The position numbers were made by a program, and so were the translations under genes. The notes under the pieces are model-generated. The model worked only from the letters and a program-made list of their open reading frames with translations. It was not told the origin of the DNA and did no database searches. Shown here one piece after another: positions 28,614-37,085 of a stretch of DNA of 64,000 bases. Numbering within the stretch: the first letter of the stretch is position 1; each line of letters starts with the position of its first letter. Origin of the DNA: Phycisphaera sp. TMED9 (lineage in GTDB: Bacteria; Planctomycetota; Phycisphaerae; Phycisphaerales; SM1A02); contig NHBO02000001.1 of the NCBI GenBank assembly GCA_002167845.2, forward strand, positions 1 through 64,000. Direction: 5' to 3'.

Positions 28614-29795
28614 ATGAAAGCCCATCTCACCTTCTTCTTCGCTCGCGCTCTTCCACTTGTGGCAATCTTCGGCCTGATCGCGATTCCCGCCGGATGTGAC
28701 GAGGCTTCGCCGCTTCCGGCCTCGGTCGATTCGACGGGCGGAACAAAGCCTCTGGCTGAGACGAGTGCCGGTACGGCGGCGCCTCCCGCGAGCTCCACTC
28801 GGGTCAGCGGCTCCGAAGACATGCTCGTGCCGGGTGGGTATCTGAAGATCTCTCCCGCGTTGGTGGACTTCGGCGCGGTCGGTCCCGGGACCATTCACCC
28901 CACGACTTTTCAGATCGCGAACATCGGAACGCAGGACGTGGTCGTCGAGAGCGTGACCCCCAGTTGTGTCTGCACCACGCTCACCGACCTCGCCGGGGTG
29001 ACGATCCCCGCCGGTGGAACGATGGAGATGTCCGCGTCGTTGGACGCCCCCCGGCAGCCGGGGGAGAAGGAGGCGAAGGTCTTCCTTCGAATCGCCGGCG
29101 TGGACTCGGTCGCGATGGTGAAGATCAAAGGCATGGTGACGCTGTCCATCCAGCCCACACCGACCTACGTCGACGCGCTCAAAGGCGTCACGAGCGGCGT
29201 CATCGATCTGGCATCCCAGGACGGCAAGCCCTTCTCGGTCATCGCGTCGAACGGATCGCCGCCGAGCTTCGTGGGATTCGACCCCACGGTGGATCAGCCT
29301 CGCAGTTCCTATCGATTGAAGTGGTCGATCGCGGGAGTCGCCGGGCCGTCGATTCCGCGCTGGTGGATCTTCACGACGGATCGGGCCGACTGCCCGCTGG
29401 TCCCATGCCGACTTCGGAATGAAAACACCGGAGCGCGTCGAGACATGGCGCGAATGACCCGGCATTGGATCATCGACGAGGATTTTCTGGATCTGGGATC
29501 GGTCCGCATCGGGCAGCCGATCGATCTGACCTGTGTCATCAAGCACTACAACCCCCGTGGCGGAGGCGCGGTCCAGCAACCCAACTGGTGGCAGGTGCTT
29601 GGAGTCACCAGCGCATCGCCCCAGTCGCTTCGGGCTGAATTCAAGGGTGTCGTGAGGCTCAATGAGGAAGAAGCGGAAGTACGCATCCAGATGACGCCGA
29701 CCGGGCCGCCATCGGATCTGCTGGTCGGTTTCATCGGCATCAGGACTTCGACCGGAAACGGCCTTCTTGAAGTCGCCGCGAAGGTCGTTCGATGA
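28614..29795 (+). CDS. DUF1573 domain lipoprotein
   Basis: Lipobox IAIPAGC; LVDFGAVGPGTIHPTTFQIANIGTQDVVVESVTPSCVCTT is the DUF1573 signature. Confidence 0.87.
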   Translation: MKAHLTFFFARALPLVAIFGLIAIPAGCDEASPLPASVDSTGGTKPLAETSAGTAAPPASSTRVSGSEDMLVPGGYLKISPALVDFGAVGPGTIHPTTFQIANIGTQDVVVESVTPSCVCTTLTDLAGVTIPAGGTMEMSASLDAPRQPGEKEAKVFLRIAGVDSVAMVKIKGMVTLSIQPTPTYVDALKGVTSGVIDLASQDGKPFSVIASNGSPPSFVGFDPTVDQPRSSYRLKWSIAGVAGPSIPRWWIFTTDRADCPLVPCRLRNENTGARRDMARMTRHWIIDEDFLDLGSVRIGQPIDLTCVIKHYNPRGGGAVQQPNWWQVLGVTSASPQSLRAEFKGVVRLNEEEAEVRIQMTPTGPPSDLLVGFIGIRTSTGNGLLEVAAKVVR

Positions 29796-30682
29796 TCGAG
29801 GCCACGAAGTTCAGCGATCGCCGGGGCGGGGATGTCGTGGAGCTGTTTCGCGCCGCTGCGGACGCCATGCTCACCGCGCCGAATCGTGATGGGTGCATTT
29901 CAAAGATTCCGGCTCGCGGCCGTCTTCTCGCAACGGGTGATCTCCATGACAATCCGATGCACTTCGCGAAGGTGATATCGCTCGCTGCGTTGGACGCTGA
30001 TCCGGATCATCATGTGATCCTGCAGGAACTGATTCACGGCGAGCGCACCATGAACGGGCTCGACCTCAGTTATCGCATGTTGGTCAAGGTCGCCTTGTTG
30101 CTGCTCGAGCATCCCGGCCAGGTGCATCCGCTTCTGGCGAACCACGAACTGGCGCAGATGGCAGGTCATTCGGTCTCGAAGGGTGGGGGCTGCATGACGA
30201 CCCGCTTCACCGAAGGGCTCGAATTCGTCTTTGGAGACGACGCCGAGGATGTGGCGGAGGCGATGGGCGTCTTCGTGCGAGCCTTGCCGCTCGCGGCTCG
30301 GACCGATCATGGAATCTTCTGTTCGCATTCGTTGCCCGGGCCGGCGATGATGTCGCGATTCGATCTGGACATCGTCGATCGTGGGCTCGGTCCGGAGGAC
30401 TATCTTCCGCTTCAAGGAAGTGCTTGGATGATGGTCTGGGGTCGAGGTCATACGGCGGAACAGATGGAGGCCATCGCCGATCGATGGGGCGTCAAGCTCT
30501 TCCTGCTCGGCCATGCCTTCGTAGAAAACGGAATCGAGATCGGGGGCCCGCGGACCATCCTGCTCAACACCGATCATGAGCGGGCGGCGGTTCTGCCGAT
30601 CGATCTCGGGGAAGCTCCACCGACGGTCGAGACGGCCATGTTCTCGTCGATCCCGCTCGCGGCGATGGGATCGCAGGCATGA
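29792..30682 (+). CDS. Divergent PPP-type metallophosphoesterase
   Basis: RLLATGDLHDNPMHFAKV and PLLANHELAQMAG metal-binding blocks; ATGA overlaps on both sides. Confidence 0.8.
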   Translation: MIEATKFSDRRGGDVVELFRAAADAMLTAPNRDGCISKIPARGRLLATGDLHDNPMHFAKVISLAALDADPDHHVILQELIHGERTMNGLDLSYRMLVKVALLLLEHPGQVHPLLANHELAQMAGHSVSKGGGCMTTRFTEGLEFVFGDDAEDVAEAMGVFVRALPLAARTDHGIFCSHSLPGPAMMSRFDLDIVDRGLGPEDYLPLQGSAWMMVWGRGHTAEQMEAIADRWGVKLFLLGHAFVENGIEIGGPRTILLNTDHERAAVLPIDLGEAPPTVETAMFSSIPLAAMGSQA

Positions 30683-31410
30683 ATCGGGATGCCGAGACGG
30701 AGTCTTCCGGCATGAGACTTCCGATGCTGGCCATCGAGCTTTCCCAACGTGCTGGAGGCGCGGCGGTACGCCACGCGGACGGGACGACCCGGGTCGCGGA
30801 GTTCGAAGGCGGACGACGCGATCGCGATGACGTTCTTCCCGGGATCGAGTCGGTGCTGGCCGACGCGGGCATTCAAGCCGCGTCGCTTGCGGCGGTGGCC
30901 GTGGATGTCGGCCCGGGAGGATTCACAGGACTTCGAATCTCCATCGCGGCGGGGCAGGCGATCGCGGAGGTCGCGTCCGCCGTGGTCATCGCGGTTCCTG
31001 CAGCGCTGGTCGCGGCCGGATCGACTCCGGGCATGGCGGCCAGGACCGGCGTGGTCATCGTCTGTGCTGCCGCCAAAGGTGGCACGGTGTGGTGTTCTCG
31101 ACTGACGCGAGTCACGATCGATGAGCCTTGGAGGATTCTGGGAACGCCCGGGATCGTGGACCGACTCGCCGGCGACGCCGAGCCTTCCGCGATTCTGGCG
31201 GATGAGCATGTCGATCCCGCGCTGCTCGAGGAGCTCCGACGGTCCGGAGTTCCGATCGATCCCCCCGTCTTCCATGCGTCGGTCCTCGCGGACATCGCCA
31301 TGCAAGGCGGACCGGACGTGCAGGTCCTGGACGATCCGGCGATGCTCCTTCCGCTGTATCCCCGAGAGCCGGAAGCCGTGCGGATGTGGCGGGAACGCCC
31401 GGGCCGATAA
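30679..31410 (+). CDS. tsaB: tRNA threonylcarbamoyladenosine biosynthesis protein TsaB
   Basis: MLAIELSQRAGGAAV..., AAVAVDVGPGGFTGLRISIAAGQAIAEV signature. Start could be 30679 or 30712. Confidence 0.9.
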   Translation: MNRDAETESSGMRLPMLAIELSQRAGGAAVRHADGTTRVAEFEGGRRDRDDVLPGIESVLADAGIQAASLAAVAVDVGPGGFTGLRISIAAGQAIAEVASAVVIAVPAALVAAGSTPGMAARTGVVIVCAAAKGGTVWCSRLTRVTIDEPWRILGTPGIVDRLAGDAEPSAILADEHVDPALLEELRRSGVPIDPPVFHASVLADIAMQGGPDVQVLDDPAMLLPLYPREPEAVRMWRERPGR

Positions 31411-31538: not shown

Positions 31539-32135
31539 ATGACCGACAAGGATAGAAAACGATCACTCGCGGAGAAGCAGGTCCTCACGACGGGAGAGGC
31601 CGCTGAAATCTGCAGATTGAGCCAGCAGACGATCATCCGCTGTTTCGACAACGGTCGTCTCACGGGATTTCGCGTTCCGGGTTCCCGCTTCCGCCGCATC
31701 CCGAGATCGGAACTGATTCGCTTCATGCGGATCAACGACATTCCGGTCGATCTGCTCGATGAGGATCGTGTTCGCATCCTCGTGGTGGACGACGATCCAA
31801 GCATCGTTCGAATCGTCGAAGAGATGCTCGGTCGCGAGGATCGTTTCGAGGTCCGCACGGCATCCACCGGTTATGACGCAGGAATGATGACCAAGGAGTT
31901 TCGTCCGAACATCCTTCTGCTCGACTACATGCTCCCGGACGTGAACGGCAACATCGTCTGCGAACGCATCAAATCCGATCCCGAGCTCGCCGGGACCCGG
32001 ATCATCGTCATCTCCGGCGTGGTTCGACGGGAAGAGATCGATGGCCTGCTCGAAGCCGGGGCGGACGCCTTCATTCCCAAGCCATTCCAGGTCGAGGAAC
32101 TCATCGAGAAGATCGACGGACTGATCGTCACCTGA
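31539..32135 (+). CDS. N-terminal excisionase/MerR-like HTH fused to a response-regulator receiver domain
   Basis: LTTGEAAEICRLSQQTIIRCFDNGRLTGFRVPGSRFRRIPRSELIRFM, then ILVVDDDPSIVRIVEEML...LLLDYMLPDVNG...IPKPFQVEEL with Asp and Lys conserved. Confidence 0.9.
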   Translation: MTDKDRKRSLAEKQVLTTGEAAEICRLSQQTIIRCFDNGRLTGFRVPGSRFRRIPRSELIRFMRINDIPVDLLDEDRVRILVVDDDPSIVRIVEEMLGREDRFEVRTASTGYDAGMMTKEFRPNILLLDYMLPDVNGNIVCERIKSDPELAGTRIIVISGVVRREEIDGLLEAGADAFIPKPFQVEELIEKIDGLIVT

Positions 32136-32148
32136 AGGGCATGGGCTC

Positions 32149-34269
32149 ATGAAGGATGCATCACTTGCGGAACGCGTTCGGAAGGTGATCGGCAGGATCG
32201 ATGCGATCCCGGCGCCTCAAGCCGTCGCGTTGCGATTGTTCGAGGCGACCTCCTCGGCTCGCACCAGCGCGGATGAAGTCGTGGCGATTCTCGCTTCGGA
32301 TCCGGCCCTGGCCGCCCGGGTGATTTCGCTCTGTCGGCGGTGCAATCACGGACTTTCCGCGGAGGTCGAGTCTCTGGAGCAGGCGGTCGTTCTGCTCGGG
32401 TTTGAAGAAATTCGAGCCGCGGTGCTCTCGATCGAGATCTGCGGGCTGTTGGGGACGAGCGAACTGGATGGAATCGCGATCGGGCTTCGCCGGCATGCGG
32501 TCCTGACTGCTTCCATCGCCCGCATCGCGGCGCAGCGTCTTCCGGGACTGGATGACATCGAACCGTCCACCGCGTTTCTGGCCGGGCTTCTGCGTGACCT
32601 GGGACATCTGGTGCTTGTGTCGGCGATCCCCGAACCCATGGAACGCCTTGCAGAGTCCGCGACCCTTCTCAACTCGGACTTCAATGACACGCTTCGCCGC
32701 GTGATCGGAGTGGATGGCGGCACGGTGGGGGCGCGGATCGCTCGAAACTGGCATCTCCCGGGCTTTCTCGAGGCCGTCGTGACGAGTTCCGGGCGAGGTC
32801 CGGCCGGAATCGCCGATACGGGAAACCGCCGTCTTGAACTGCTCGTCGGATTCGCTGATGCCGTCGCGAGGCGGTGCGGACTGGAGTCCATCGGCCGCCG
32901 ACCGGGGGTCGGGGTGGTTCGAGCCTACGAGGAAGCCCTTGGATGCACCTGTGCGGATCTCGACTCCTGGCTTCCCGAAGCGATGGAGATGGCGACCGAA
33001 TCGGCCTCCATGCTCGGGCTCGAGATGGCGTCGTTCAACCGAGCGATCGTGAACGCGTCTCCCGAGATCAGAGGCGACTCGGAACGAGCGTCGGTTCGGG
33101 GTGATCTCGCGGGCTCCGCCTGGCCGGTTGATTGCACCGAGTCCCTTGAGACGGTGTGGTTTCTGAATCGAGTCGCCGCCGCCGAGTCTCGGAACGAAGT
33201 CGAGGCGGTGATGCTTGATTCCGCCCGGCGCACCGACCCGGAAGCGTCGATGAGAATCGTGTTTCGACGAGATGATCGGTGGCTCGCGTCAGCGACGGTC
33301 GACGAAGTGAGTCTGGAACCACCTGAAGAACCCCTCGAGTGGTTGAGAGGGTCCATGGGTGAACGAGGGGCTCACGCCGAAATCGCCATCTTCGGTCTTC
33401 CGCAGGACGGATTGATGATCGGACTGGACTCGAATTCCTCGCCGGGGCCGAGTCTCGTGGCGGCTTGGAAGTGGAGTCATGAGCACGCGAGGAGATTCGA
33501 ACGACTCGAATCGGCCGGTGAGGAGGCCGTGCTCGCCGCCCGACAGGAGATCGAATCCGCACGTCGAATTGCGAAGCTTGATGCGGACGCGACTCTGGCG
33601 GAGATCGCTGCCGGGGCTGCTCACGAGATGAACAACCCGTTGACGGTGATCTCCGGCCGTGCCCAGATTCTCTGTGGAAGAAGTGGCGATTCCTTCGTGG
33701 ACGCGGGCATCGAGGAGATCGCCGGTCAGGCGAAGGTTCTCGCGAGGATCGTGCGAGGCCTGCATCAGCATGCCACCGGTGCCGCGATCGCGATGGAAAG
33801 AACCACCTCGCATCGGATTCTCGAGGCATGCGCGGAAGCTGCGCGGTCGGAAGTCTCCGGGCAACATCGGATCGTGATCCAGGGCGAGAAAAGCGAGGTC
33901 GGACTGTGCGTTGACGTCCGGAGAATCGCCGAGATAGCGATCGAAGCGGTTCGCAATGCCTGCGAGGGCAAGGAAGACGTCTGTATTCGAATACGAGGTT
34001 CAATCGACCCGCTCGATGGCCGATGGTCTCTTTTGGTTGAGGACGACGGTCCAGGCTTCGGGCATACGGCGCTCGAACACGCCTTCGATCCCTTCTTCAG
34101 CCAGAAGACCGCCGGACGGCGGACAGGCCTCGGCCTCACCGTCGTCCGTCGAATCGCGGAAGCGCATGGAGGCTCGGCCTCGGTGCACAACCGGACCGAG
34201 GGAGGGGGATGCCTCGTGGTGTCCCTGCCGATCCAGAGTCCGGATGAGACGACTCGAACCGCTGCGTGA
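32149..34269 (+). CDS. HDOD domain-histidine kinase hybrid
   Basis: N-terminal HDOD-like (RIDAIPAPQAVALRLFEATSSARTSADEVVAILASDPALAARVISLCR); C-terminal H-box AHEMNNPLTVISGRAQIL, LLVEDDGPGFG, GLGLTVVRRIAEAHGGSASV. Confidence 0.9.
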   Translation: MKDASLAERVRKVIGRIDAIPAPQAVALRLFEATSSARTSADEVVAILASDPALAARVISLCRRCNHGLSAEVESLEQAVVLLGFEEIRAAVLSIEICGLLGTSELDGIAIGLRRHAVLTASIARIAAQRLPGLDDIEPSTAFLAGLLRDLGHLVLVSAIPEPMERLAESATLLNSDFNDTLRRVIGVDGGTVGARIARNWHLPGFLEAVVTSSGRGPAGIADTGNRRLELLVGFADAVARRCGLESIGRRPGVGVVRAYEEALGCTCADLDSWLPEAMEMATESASMLGLEMASFNRAIVNASPEIRGDSERASVRGDLAGSAWPVDCTESLETVWFLNRVAAAESRNEVEAVMLDSARRTDPEASMRIVFRRDDRWLASATVDEVSLEPPEEPLEWLRGSMGERGAHAEIAIFGLPQDGLMIGLDSNSSPGPSLVAAWKWSHEHARRFERLESAGEEAVLAARQEIESARRIAKLDADATLAEIAAGAAHEMNNPLTVISGRAQILCGRSGDSFVDAGIEEIAGQAKVLARIVRGLHQHATGAAIAMERTTSHRILEACAEAARSEVSGQHRIVIQGEKSEVGLCVDVRRIAEIAIEAVRNACEGKEDVCIRIRGSIDPLDGRWSLLVEDDGPGFGHTALEHAFDPFFSQKTAGRRTGLGLTVVRRIAEAHGGSASVHNRTEGGGCLVVSLPIQSPDETTRTAA

Positions 34270-34299
34270 TGCGGATGAACAGGAGCAGGGGAGCCAACG

Positions 34300-35460
34300 A
34301 TGAACTTCGAACCTGAGATGCCCGGCATGAACACGCGATCTTCGGATGGAACCAAGCGTTCGCAGTACCGAGTACTGATCTGTGCCTCCCGGCCGGAGAC
34401 ACTGACGCTGACGGCGCTTCTGGAAGCCGCCGATGGAACGTATCGATGCACGGTGACCCCGAGTGTCGAAGAGTTTCGAAAACGGCTTCTTGAAGACCGA
34501 TGCGAGGTGATTCTGATCGCCGCGGATGATGTCGATTCAGAACTGGCAAATGACGTCCGCCGGCTTCAGCCGCACGCTTCGATGGTCTTCGCCGCCCCCT
34601 CCGTCGGGGTTCAGGATCTGACCAAGGCGATGCAGGCGGGTGCCGTTGATTTTCTGACCGGCCCTCTGAATGCAGAGGAGGTCGAGGAGCGAGTCGGTCT
34701 CGCCGCGAATCGAAGCATCGAGCTCGTCGAGCGTGAAGAGCGAATGCACCGACTCCGAAGTCTGAGCCGCCGGCTGAAGTCTGAATCCAACGGCGTCACC
34801 GACCTCGCCGATCTCGAGGCATCGACAACCGACCCGGCCGCCGAGGAACTGATCGTCCCGGACTCATCCGACGCACTGGACGAGGATCGTCGTCTCGATG
34901 AAGTGGCGATGTGCAGCGAGTTCCGAACGCTCATTCGACAGGAGCTCGACGTCGAGGACCTTCTCCGGACGGCGCTCGAGTATCTGCTGGTGAAGACAGG
35001 ACCGACGAACGCGGCCGTCTATCTCGCGGGAGGCGATGAATCCTTCGGACTGGGCGCGTACGTCAACTGCGATCTCAATCGAAAGTCGGTCGAGCCGATG
35101 CTGAAGCGGCTTTGTGATGAAGCCTGCCCGGCGATCGCGGAGCACACCGACGTACTCCGGTTCGAGGATGCGAACGAGTTCATCGCGGAGTGCGAGCTCG
35201 GCGCCGAGGTGTCCACGGACATCGAGATGGTCGCCGTTCCGTGCCACTTCGATGGCGAGTGTCTCGCCGTGATGTTCCTCTTCCGAAGTGCGGACGATGC
35301 ATTCGAGGATTCCGTCGCTCAGACGCTTGATGCCTTGCGGGAGATTCTCGCAGAGCAGCTCGCGACTCTCATTCGCGTGCACAATCGGCTGGAGAACAAC
35401 TGGCCCGAGGAAGCCGTCGACGAAGACGACGATCTCGGCTGGGACGATCTCGCAGCCTGA
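34300..35460 (+). CDS. Pseudo-receiver + GAF-like regulatory protein
   Basis: Receiver-like fold VLICASRPETLTLTALLEA...EVILIAADDVDSEL...GAVDFLTGPLNAEEV with canonical D and K positions replaced; GAF-like ELDVEDLLRTALEYLLVKTGPTNAAVYLAGG... Confidence 0.75.
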   Translation: MNFEPEMPGMNTRSSDGTKRSQYRVLICASRPETLTLTALLEAADGTYRCTVTPSVEEFRKRLLEDRCEVILIAADDVDSELANDVRRLQPHASMVFAAPSVGVQDLTKAMQAGAVDFLTGPLNAEEVEERVGLAANRSIELVEREERMHRLRSLSRRLKSESNGVTDLADLEASTTDPAAEELIVPDSSDALDEDRRLDEVAMCSEFRTLIRQELDVEDLLRTALEYLLVKTGPTNAAVYLAGGDESFGLGAYVNCDLNRKSVEPMLKRLCDEACPAIAEHTDVLRFEDANEFIAECELGAEVSTDIEMVAVPCHFDGECLAVMFLFRSADDAFEDSVAQTLDALREILAEQLATLIRVHNRLENNWPEEAVDEDDDLGWDDLAA

Positions 35461-36236: not shown

Positions 36237-37085
36237 TCACTCGGAAGCCTTGCCGATGAAGAATCCGAGCAGGCCGAAGATGATGAGGCCGCCGATGAGA
36301 CCGCCGAACCAGATCATCATGCCGCCGGTCATCATTTCCGCGAGTGCGGGAAGGGTGCCGCTGGAACCCACGAATGCCATGAGCGCCACGAGACAGAGTG
36401 ATGCCACCGCGACGATGCCCATGCCGACGCCGAGTCCGGACCAGCCGCCTTCGTAGGATTCGACGACCATCGGCACACCACCCATGGGCATGCCGCCACC
36501 AAGGTTGTTTCCGCCACTCTCTGCGCCGGCCGCCTCGAAGAGGCCGCTGGAGCTTGAAGGGATCGCCGGATCGTCATCGTTTGAGTAGACCTCGTCGAGA
36601 AGTTCGGCACCGAGCGAGGTGTCGTCGGACTCCCGGGTCAGGTCGAGCAGGCCACTTCCGCTGCCGACGGTCTCCAGCGAGAGATCGTCTTTGAGAAGGT
36701 CGTCACCCGAGGCTTCGCTCTCGAATGCACTGATGCCGGTTCCCATGCCGCTTCCCGCGAGGAAGCTGTCATCCGCACCGGCGGTGTTGGAGTCTTCGAG
36801 TCCGATCTCTCCGCTCATCTCAAGCGAAACGTCATCGCTGTCGATCCCGGGCGCGGAGCCACTCAGTCCGAGCGAGTCGGCTTCGCCGCTGTCTTCGAGA
36901 TTGATGGAGAGGTCGCCGATGTCGTCGGTCGAGGAGATCATGTCGATCTGCTCGACGCGGAACATGTCCTGATTGTCCTGCTTGAAGGACTGGACTTCGC
37001 CGCTCTTCGCCATTGCCATGAGCTCGTCCACGGACTTCCCGAGCTTGCCAGCGGCCTCTTCGGCCGAATAGAACATCTTCGCCAT
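36237..37085 (-). CDS. Membrane protein with N-terminal HTH/excisionase-like segment, acidic linker and two C-terminal TM helices
   Basis: MFYSAEEAAGKLGKSVDELMAMAKSGEVQSFKQDNQDMFRVEQIDMI; long Asp/Ser/Gly-rich linker; GMGIVAVASLCLVALMAFVG and MMIWFGGLIGGLIIFGLLGFFIG. Confidence 0.7.
   Translation of the reverse strand: MAKMFYSAEEAAGKLGKSVDELMAMAKSGEVQSFKQDNQDMFRVEQIDMISSTDDIGDLSINLEDSGEADSLGLSGSAPGIDSDDVSLEMSGEIGLEDSNTAGADDSFLAGSGMGTGISAFESEASGDDLLKDDLSLETVGSGSGLLDLTRESDDTSLGAELLDEVYSNDDDPAIPSSSSGLFEAAGAESGGNNLGGGMPMGGVPMVVESYEGGWSGLGVGMGIVAVASLCLVALMAFVGSSGTLPALAEMMTGGMMIWFGGLIGGLIIFGLLGFFIGKASE

Follow-up and report, generated by a model that had tools for sequence, protein, structure and literature searches.

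The window analyzed here, the whole 64,000-nucleotide stretch of Phycisphaera sp. TMED9 DNA, contains three consecutive forward-strand genes, which we call A, B, and C, with gaps of 13 bp between A and B and 30 bp between B and C, confirming the compact same-strand layout that the earlier note had placed at these coordinates. The longest ORF was used to set each gene start, so the C-termini are more reliable than the N-termini. Chance or mis-called ORFs were ruled out by conservation across dozens of genera. The features of the locus are as follows:

30679-31410, forward strand: tsaB-like gene, usually next to A on its 5′ side, or next to C in loci without A and B; context, outside the module
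31539-32135, forward strand: A, DNA-binding response regulator of 198 aa, with an N-terminal BldC/excisionase-like wHTH (residues 15-64) and a canonical C-terminal receiver (80-192; phospho-acceptor D129)
32149-34269, forward strand: B, soluble HDOD-HisKA-HATPase histidine kinase of 706 aa ending in -RTAA, with HDOD (20-211), a poorly resolved alpha/beta segment (328-425), a long helix with HisKA (H492), and HATPase (589-696)
34243-34266, forward strand: coding region of the last eight residues of B, ending in -TAA; candidate degron
34300-35460, forward strand: C, aspartate-less receiver plus GAF, 386 aa, with receiver (23-140), helix, GAF (197-364), and an acidic tail ending in -WDDLAA
35392-35457, forward strand: coding region of the disordered acidic tail of C (residues 365-386), with an ssrA-like -LAA end; candidate degron

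Further out, a metallophosphatase-like gene (29792-30682, forward strand; Pfam match below the cut-off) lies 5′ of the tsaB-like gene, with 29 loci of the order retaining it. A reverse-strand gene (36237-37085), located two genes beyond C in 19 loci, encodes a protein with an HTH-like start and hydrophobic segments at its end, for which no match was found in Pfam.

Pfam identified HTH_17 (9.7e-10) and Response_reg (8.9e-23) in A, and this order, HTH then receiver, is the reverse of that usual in response regulators. The receiver active site is complete (D84, D85, D129, S159, and K181) and invariant across the family alignment, where the HTH is near-invariant (TTGEAA...SQQTIIRCFD.GRL.GFRVPGSRFRRIPR), as expected if A has many targets; the tie to a global physiological decision that had been suggested for the locus is only hinted at by this near-invariant DNA-binding domain. 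The best solved-structure match of the A wHTH, a weak one, is BldC (6AMK and 6AMA, E 0.028-0.14), which makes the BldC wHTH its nearest solved relative, but BldC is a 68-residue protein without a receiver (PMC5859096), whereas A carries an extra one at its C-terminus. Pairwise dN/dS of A within the genus was 0.08-0.13, indicating purifying selection, and a scan upstream of A, with shuffles that preserved single-base composition only, gave no clear binding motif.

Paralogs of A were also observed. One has the same HTH-receiver layout with Glu in place of the apparent phospho-Asp (YELG; VVEVS), is found in most relatives, and is ~36-40% identical to A (L002 1297-2085, corresponding to G000:C22:19487-20047, and L329 4051-4644); it is possibly a phosphomimic regulator. 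Another paralog with the HTH-receiver layout shares 49% identity with A and adjoins a GAF-sigma54 activator gene (L354 6447-7055, G036).

B matched HDOD (1.5e-32), HisKA (8.6e-7), and HATPase_c (3.2e-18) in Pfam, and its catalytic residues H492, N603, D632/G634/G636 (D632-x-G-x-G), and G660/G662 are kept and invariant in the family alignment. Its predicted structure contains the HDOD helices, the poorly resolved alpha/beta segment, H492 on a long helix (434-511), and the ATPase. The highest 19-residue hydropathy of B is 1.75, with no membrane-like segment, in agreement with the cytosolic kinase described previously, and by the same measure A and C have no membrane-like stretch either. With H-, N-, and G-boxes, a complete receiver, and gene linkage, A and B show every sequence feature of a two-component pair. 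The linkage and the intact catalytic residues of both proteins argue for their pairing and give good support to the prediction that B phosphorylates A. The proposal of a phosphorelay was not upheld in the strict four-step sense, as Pfam searches of A, B, and C revealed no HPt domain or second phosphorylatable step in the operon.

C matched GAF (3.9e-4) and Response_reg (4.7e-3) in Pfam, both under the curated cut-offs, and a family profile of its receiver matched the NtrC1 receiver (4e-21). The AlphaFold model contains a confident receiver (pLDDT about 90, residues 23-140) followed by a long helix, a fold resembling GAF, and a tail predicted to be disordered, and Foldseek matched the receiver and GAF domains separately; with a mean pLDDT of 78 and a pTM of 0.46, the relative placement of the domains in the model is not reliable. 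Pfam, the family profile, and the AlphaFold model thus supported the domain content that the earlier note had assigned to A, B, and C. All five receiver residues are lost in the C of the window, where the active-site positions are occupied by A29/S30, A74, A99, and G121, so the claim that the third protein cannot be phosphorylated holds in the window's lineage. With a receiver fold (by profile and model) and A74 at the D57 position, C is by definition an aspartate-less receiver (ALR). ALRs account for about 4% of receivers surveyed, with RitR as an example, and C is like them in having a receiver fold without the phospho-Asp (PMC4395418), but it is unlike ALRs such as RitR in its GAF output, in the HDOD kinase alongside, and in having intact-receiver relatives at the equivalent gene position.

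Among the homologs of C, 47 of 76 keep none or one of the five receiver residues and 5 of 76 keep all of them, every one in family f5; outside the order, the C-type receivers of L316 and L317 are canonical. Because these relatives have an intact receiver, we consider C a degenerate second response regulator and not the adaptor by design that had been proposed. The median identity of homologs to the window protein is 43% in the GAF versus 23% in the receiver, which is the least conserved structured part of C. Nine GAF columns are invariant in 24 sequences, and within the receiver G114 and D117 never vary in the family alignment. Pairwise dN/dS of C within the genus was 0.10-0.15, again indicating purifying selection, and its named close relatives are Phycisphaerales/Phycisphaerae MAGs. 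The coiled-coil motif is eroded in the C of the window's genus, and the regular expression applied to this motif within the order was too crude for counting. A Cys-x-His-x-Cys metal site in the GAF (C315/H317/C321), suggested by column counts, was dropped, as several families are without it.

Matches to A, B, and C co-occur in the sampled families of the order (101 relatives), with C present in 93 of the 101. The 79 loci from six sampled families were arranged as A-B-C (48), A-C (9), B-C (5), and C alone (17). These totals also cover one contig break (G001), one interrupted kinase (G050), and two decayed kinases (G006 and G007); many of the genomes are MAGs, in which absences can be assembly gaps. 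Conservation of the neighborhood had been set beforehand as a point on which the idea could be refuted, and the 48 A-B-C loci speak in its favor. C has no adjoining A, B, or both in 31 of the 79 loci, with some contig breaks and interrupted kinases among them, and it is therefore not tied to the kinase. Of the shared pathway proposed for the trio, the A-B pairing stands as very likely. The tsaB-like gene is a frequent upstream neighbor in the loci of the order, one to four genes away, and this variable distance fits the loss of A and B by deletion at a single site.

Two genomes from the window's genus (L104 8543-9221 and L105 8007-8769) have lost most of kinase B, which is also interrupted; the breakpoints differ, and A and C are intact in both. 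As proof of long-term function of A and C without B, these cases (G006 and G007) were weakened by the differing breakpoints and the well-preserved remnants; the deletions may be recent, or they could be assembly errors.

In 20 loci from other orders of the class, B came after A in 18 of the 19 that were informative, and a C-type protein came after A-B in 14-15 of those 19. The layout of these C-type proteins is receiver-coiled coil-GAF in L315, L316, L317, L319, and L330, receiver-coiled coil in L325, L326, L328, L329, L332, and L334, and coiled coil-GAF without a receiver in L322, L324, and L333, and nearly all of the C-type proteins of other orders have a VDLLCNDLV-like motif that is absent from the C of the window. 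In other planctomycete families, 15 of 23 tested genomes have a same-strand HisKA-HATPase frame a short distance 3′ of A; several of these frames have 243-304 aa, apparently too short for an added HDOD, and beside A no C-type match beyond a plain receiver was seen among the matches listed. A GAF profile search, which covered few same-class genomes, had suggested that C was confined to the order, and this was withdrawn in view of the C-type genes beside A-B in other orders. The simplest reading of these gene distributions is that an A-kinase pair is old, that HDOD came to the kinase in Phycisphaerae, and that C was added in Phycisphaerae, and A-B is very likely an ancient, cognate two-component pair.

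The tail of C is acidic and poorly alignable, but its last residues are conserved. Distinct C tails end in -AA in 98 of 124 cases, 42 of them in -LAA, compared with 5 of 453 (-AA) and 0 of 453 (-LAA) for the background of conserved ORFs near C. B ends in -AA or -VA in 32 of 53 cases, against 7 of 453 for the same neighbors and 5 of 57 for A, and such ends of B are commoner where C ends in -AA (28/36 versus 4/17). The tmRNA tag of the window's genome is ANTQYALAA, beside -LAA in C and -TAA in B; the tags in 16 genomes of the order all end in -LAA or -MAA, and clpX was present in 9 of 9 genomes checked. The -AA tail of C is nearly confined to families f1-f4, f5 and f6 having mostly -PF, -SF, -GF, or other ends; the C tails of the outgroups L316 and L317 end in -PF, and -AA is lost in several C-only genomes. 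An -A tail occurs in none of the six C proteins that keep the phospho-Asp, its acidic partner, and Lys, but in 56 of the 70 others. As the sequences are related by descent, p-values for these counts exaggerate the strength of the pattern, which may reflect one change; the -AA tail and receiver loss follow clades and may represent a single event.

Long tmRNA tags were seen in f5/f6 (e.g., ANDNVAGRIGFAPARLAA; L296, L297, L298, L300, L304, L306, and L309), as opposed to the short tag (ANTQYALAA) of f1-f4. C tails ending in -LPF or -IPF after acidic residues occur in L163, L166, L174, others of f5/f6, L316, and L317, and the ends after acidic residues in f5/f6 and L316/L317 resemble the C-terminal peptide of single-stranded DNA-binding protein (SSB).

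The tails give moderate support to the view that C and B are short-lived substrates of ClpXP-type proteolysis. We propose only tentatively, as a rather doubtful extension, that C swapped phosphorylation for proteolytic control in f1-f4 and that with kinase B it carries an ssrA-like -AA degron, forming a ClpXP-timed module. In Caulobacter, a C-terminal Ala-Gly ClpXP motif is common to ShkA and TacA; ShkA(DD) is stabilized, and TacA is degraded by ClpXP (PMC7010744). ShkA-TacA and B-C are alike in that a kinase and a partner regulator have a common C-terminal small-residue motif and a pseudo-receiver is involved; however, ShkA-TacA has its pseudo-receiver within the kinase, where it binds c-di-GMP, its motif is Ala-Gly, and neither protein is an ortholog of B or C. 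In B and C, the motif is -AA with a putative degron role, and the arrangement would be analogous to, not derived from, the Caulobacter timer.

Taken as a whole, the best explanation, which we put at about 45%, is that A and B are a cognate pair, C is a second regulator that works without phosphate, and the levels of C and B are limited by ClpXP. Soluble B would read an intracellular cue via HDOD, and perhaps also via the alpha/beta segment that follows, autophosphorylate on H492, and pass the phosphate to D129 of A, and phosphorylated A would act on DNA through its BldC-like wHTH. C would be a second response regulator, joined in Phycisphaerae, whose receiver in the window's lineage is not phosphorylatable, and it would work via the GAF and contacts with other proteins, most likely as a phosphate-independent modulator of A or B. 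Turnover would limit how much C and B is present, with the -AA ends acting as ssrA-like degrons for ClpXP. The C-alone loci (17 of 79) weaken this explanation, as the main role of C may not involve A-B.

The same loci, where the tsaB-like gene is often directly upstream of C, also speak for a possible but less probable account in which C is an autonomous GAF-based regulator that binds a ligand and has other partners, with two modules merely sharing an operon. The presence of C in 93 of 101 relatives and the GAF being its best conserved part are in line with this, but in other orders 14-15 of 19 informative loci have a C-type gene after A-B, and none was seen among the matches listed where only A-kinase exists, which makes the association specific and old. 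In Shewanella, the HnoK-HnoB-HnoC-HnoD network reportedly consists of a kinase and several regulators, one of them allosteric with a degenerate receiver; at the present locus HDOD is instead part of the kinase itself, C has a GAF, and a search of the genes next to the trio identified no H-NOX gene. An allosteric partner like HnoD, whose dead receiver pairs with the receiver of A or fills the docking surface of B and so inhibits or gates phosphotransfer, would explain why the receiver fold is retained, with G114 and D117 invariant, despite loss of the active site. We consider it unlikely, as the receiver is the least conserved structured part of C (23% identity) and the class relatives L322, L324, and L333 have a coiled coil-GAF protein without any receiver.

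A C-terminal -AA can also serve purposes besides degradation, and the -PF, -SF, and -GF ends that follow acidic residues in f5/f6 and L316/L317 suggest that different partners may bind there. We nevertheless doubt that the -AA ends serve for docking to another protein rather than as a degron, as the -LAA end of C equals the tmRNA tag end of the same genome and B shares -AA/-VA without the acidic motif. Far less credible is a functionless C in the window's lineage, a decaying pseudogene-in-waiting, which the degenerate receiver and the eroded coiled-coil motif could suggest, but which is at odds with the low dN/dS within the genus, the wide presence of C among relatives, and the nine invariant GAF columns.

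In the mostly open-access literature searched, we found no description of an HDOD kinase with such a partner set. The operon is therefore presented as an undescribed signaling system kept across the class, of which the parts are known and the combination is new. It is a deeply conserved signaling operon in a class with little-studied regulation, and its near-invariant DNA-binding regulator A may have many targets. The C family preserves stages of phosphorylation loss beside intact relatives, making the order of events readable, and if the tails are degrons, B and C would be a separate case in which proteolysis limits a kinase together with its partner regulator.
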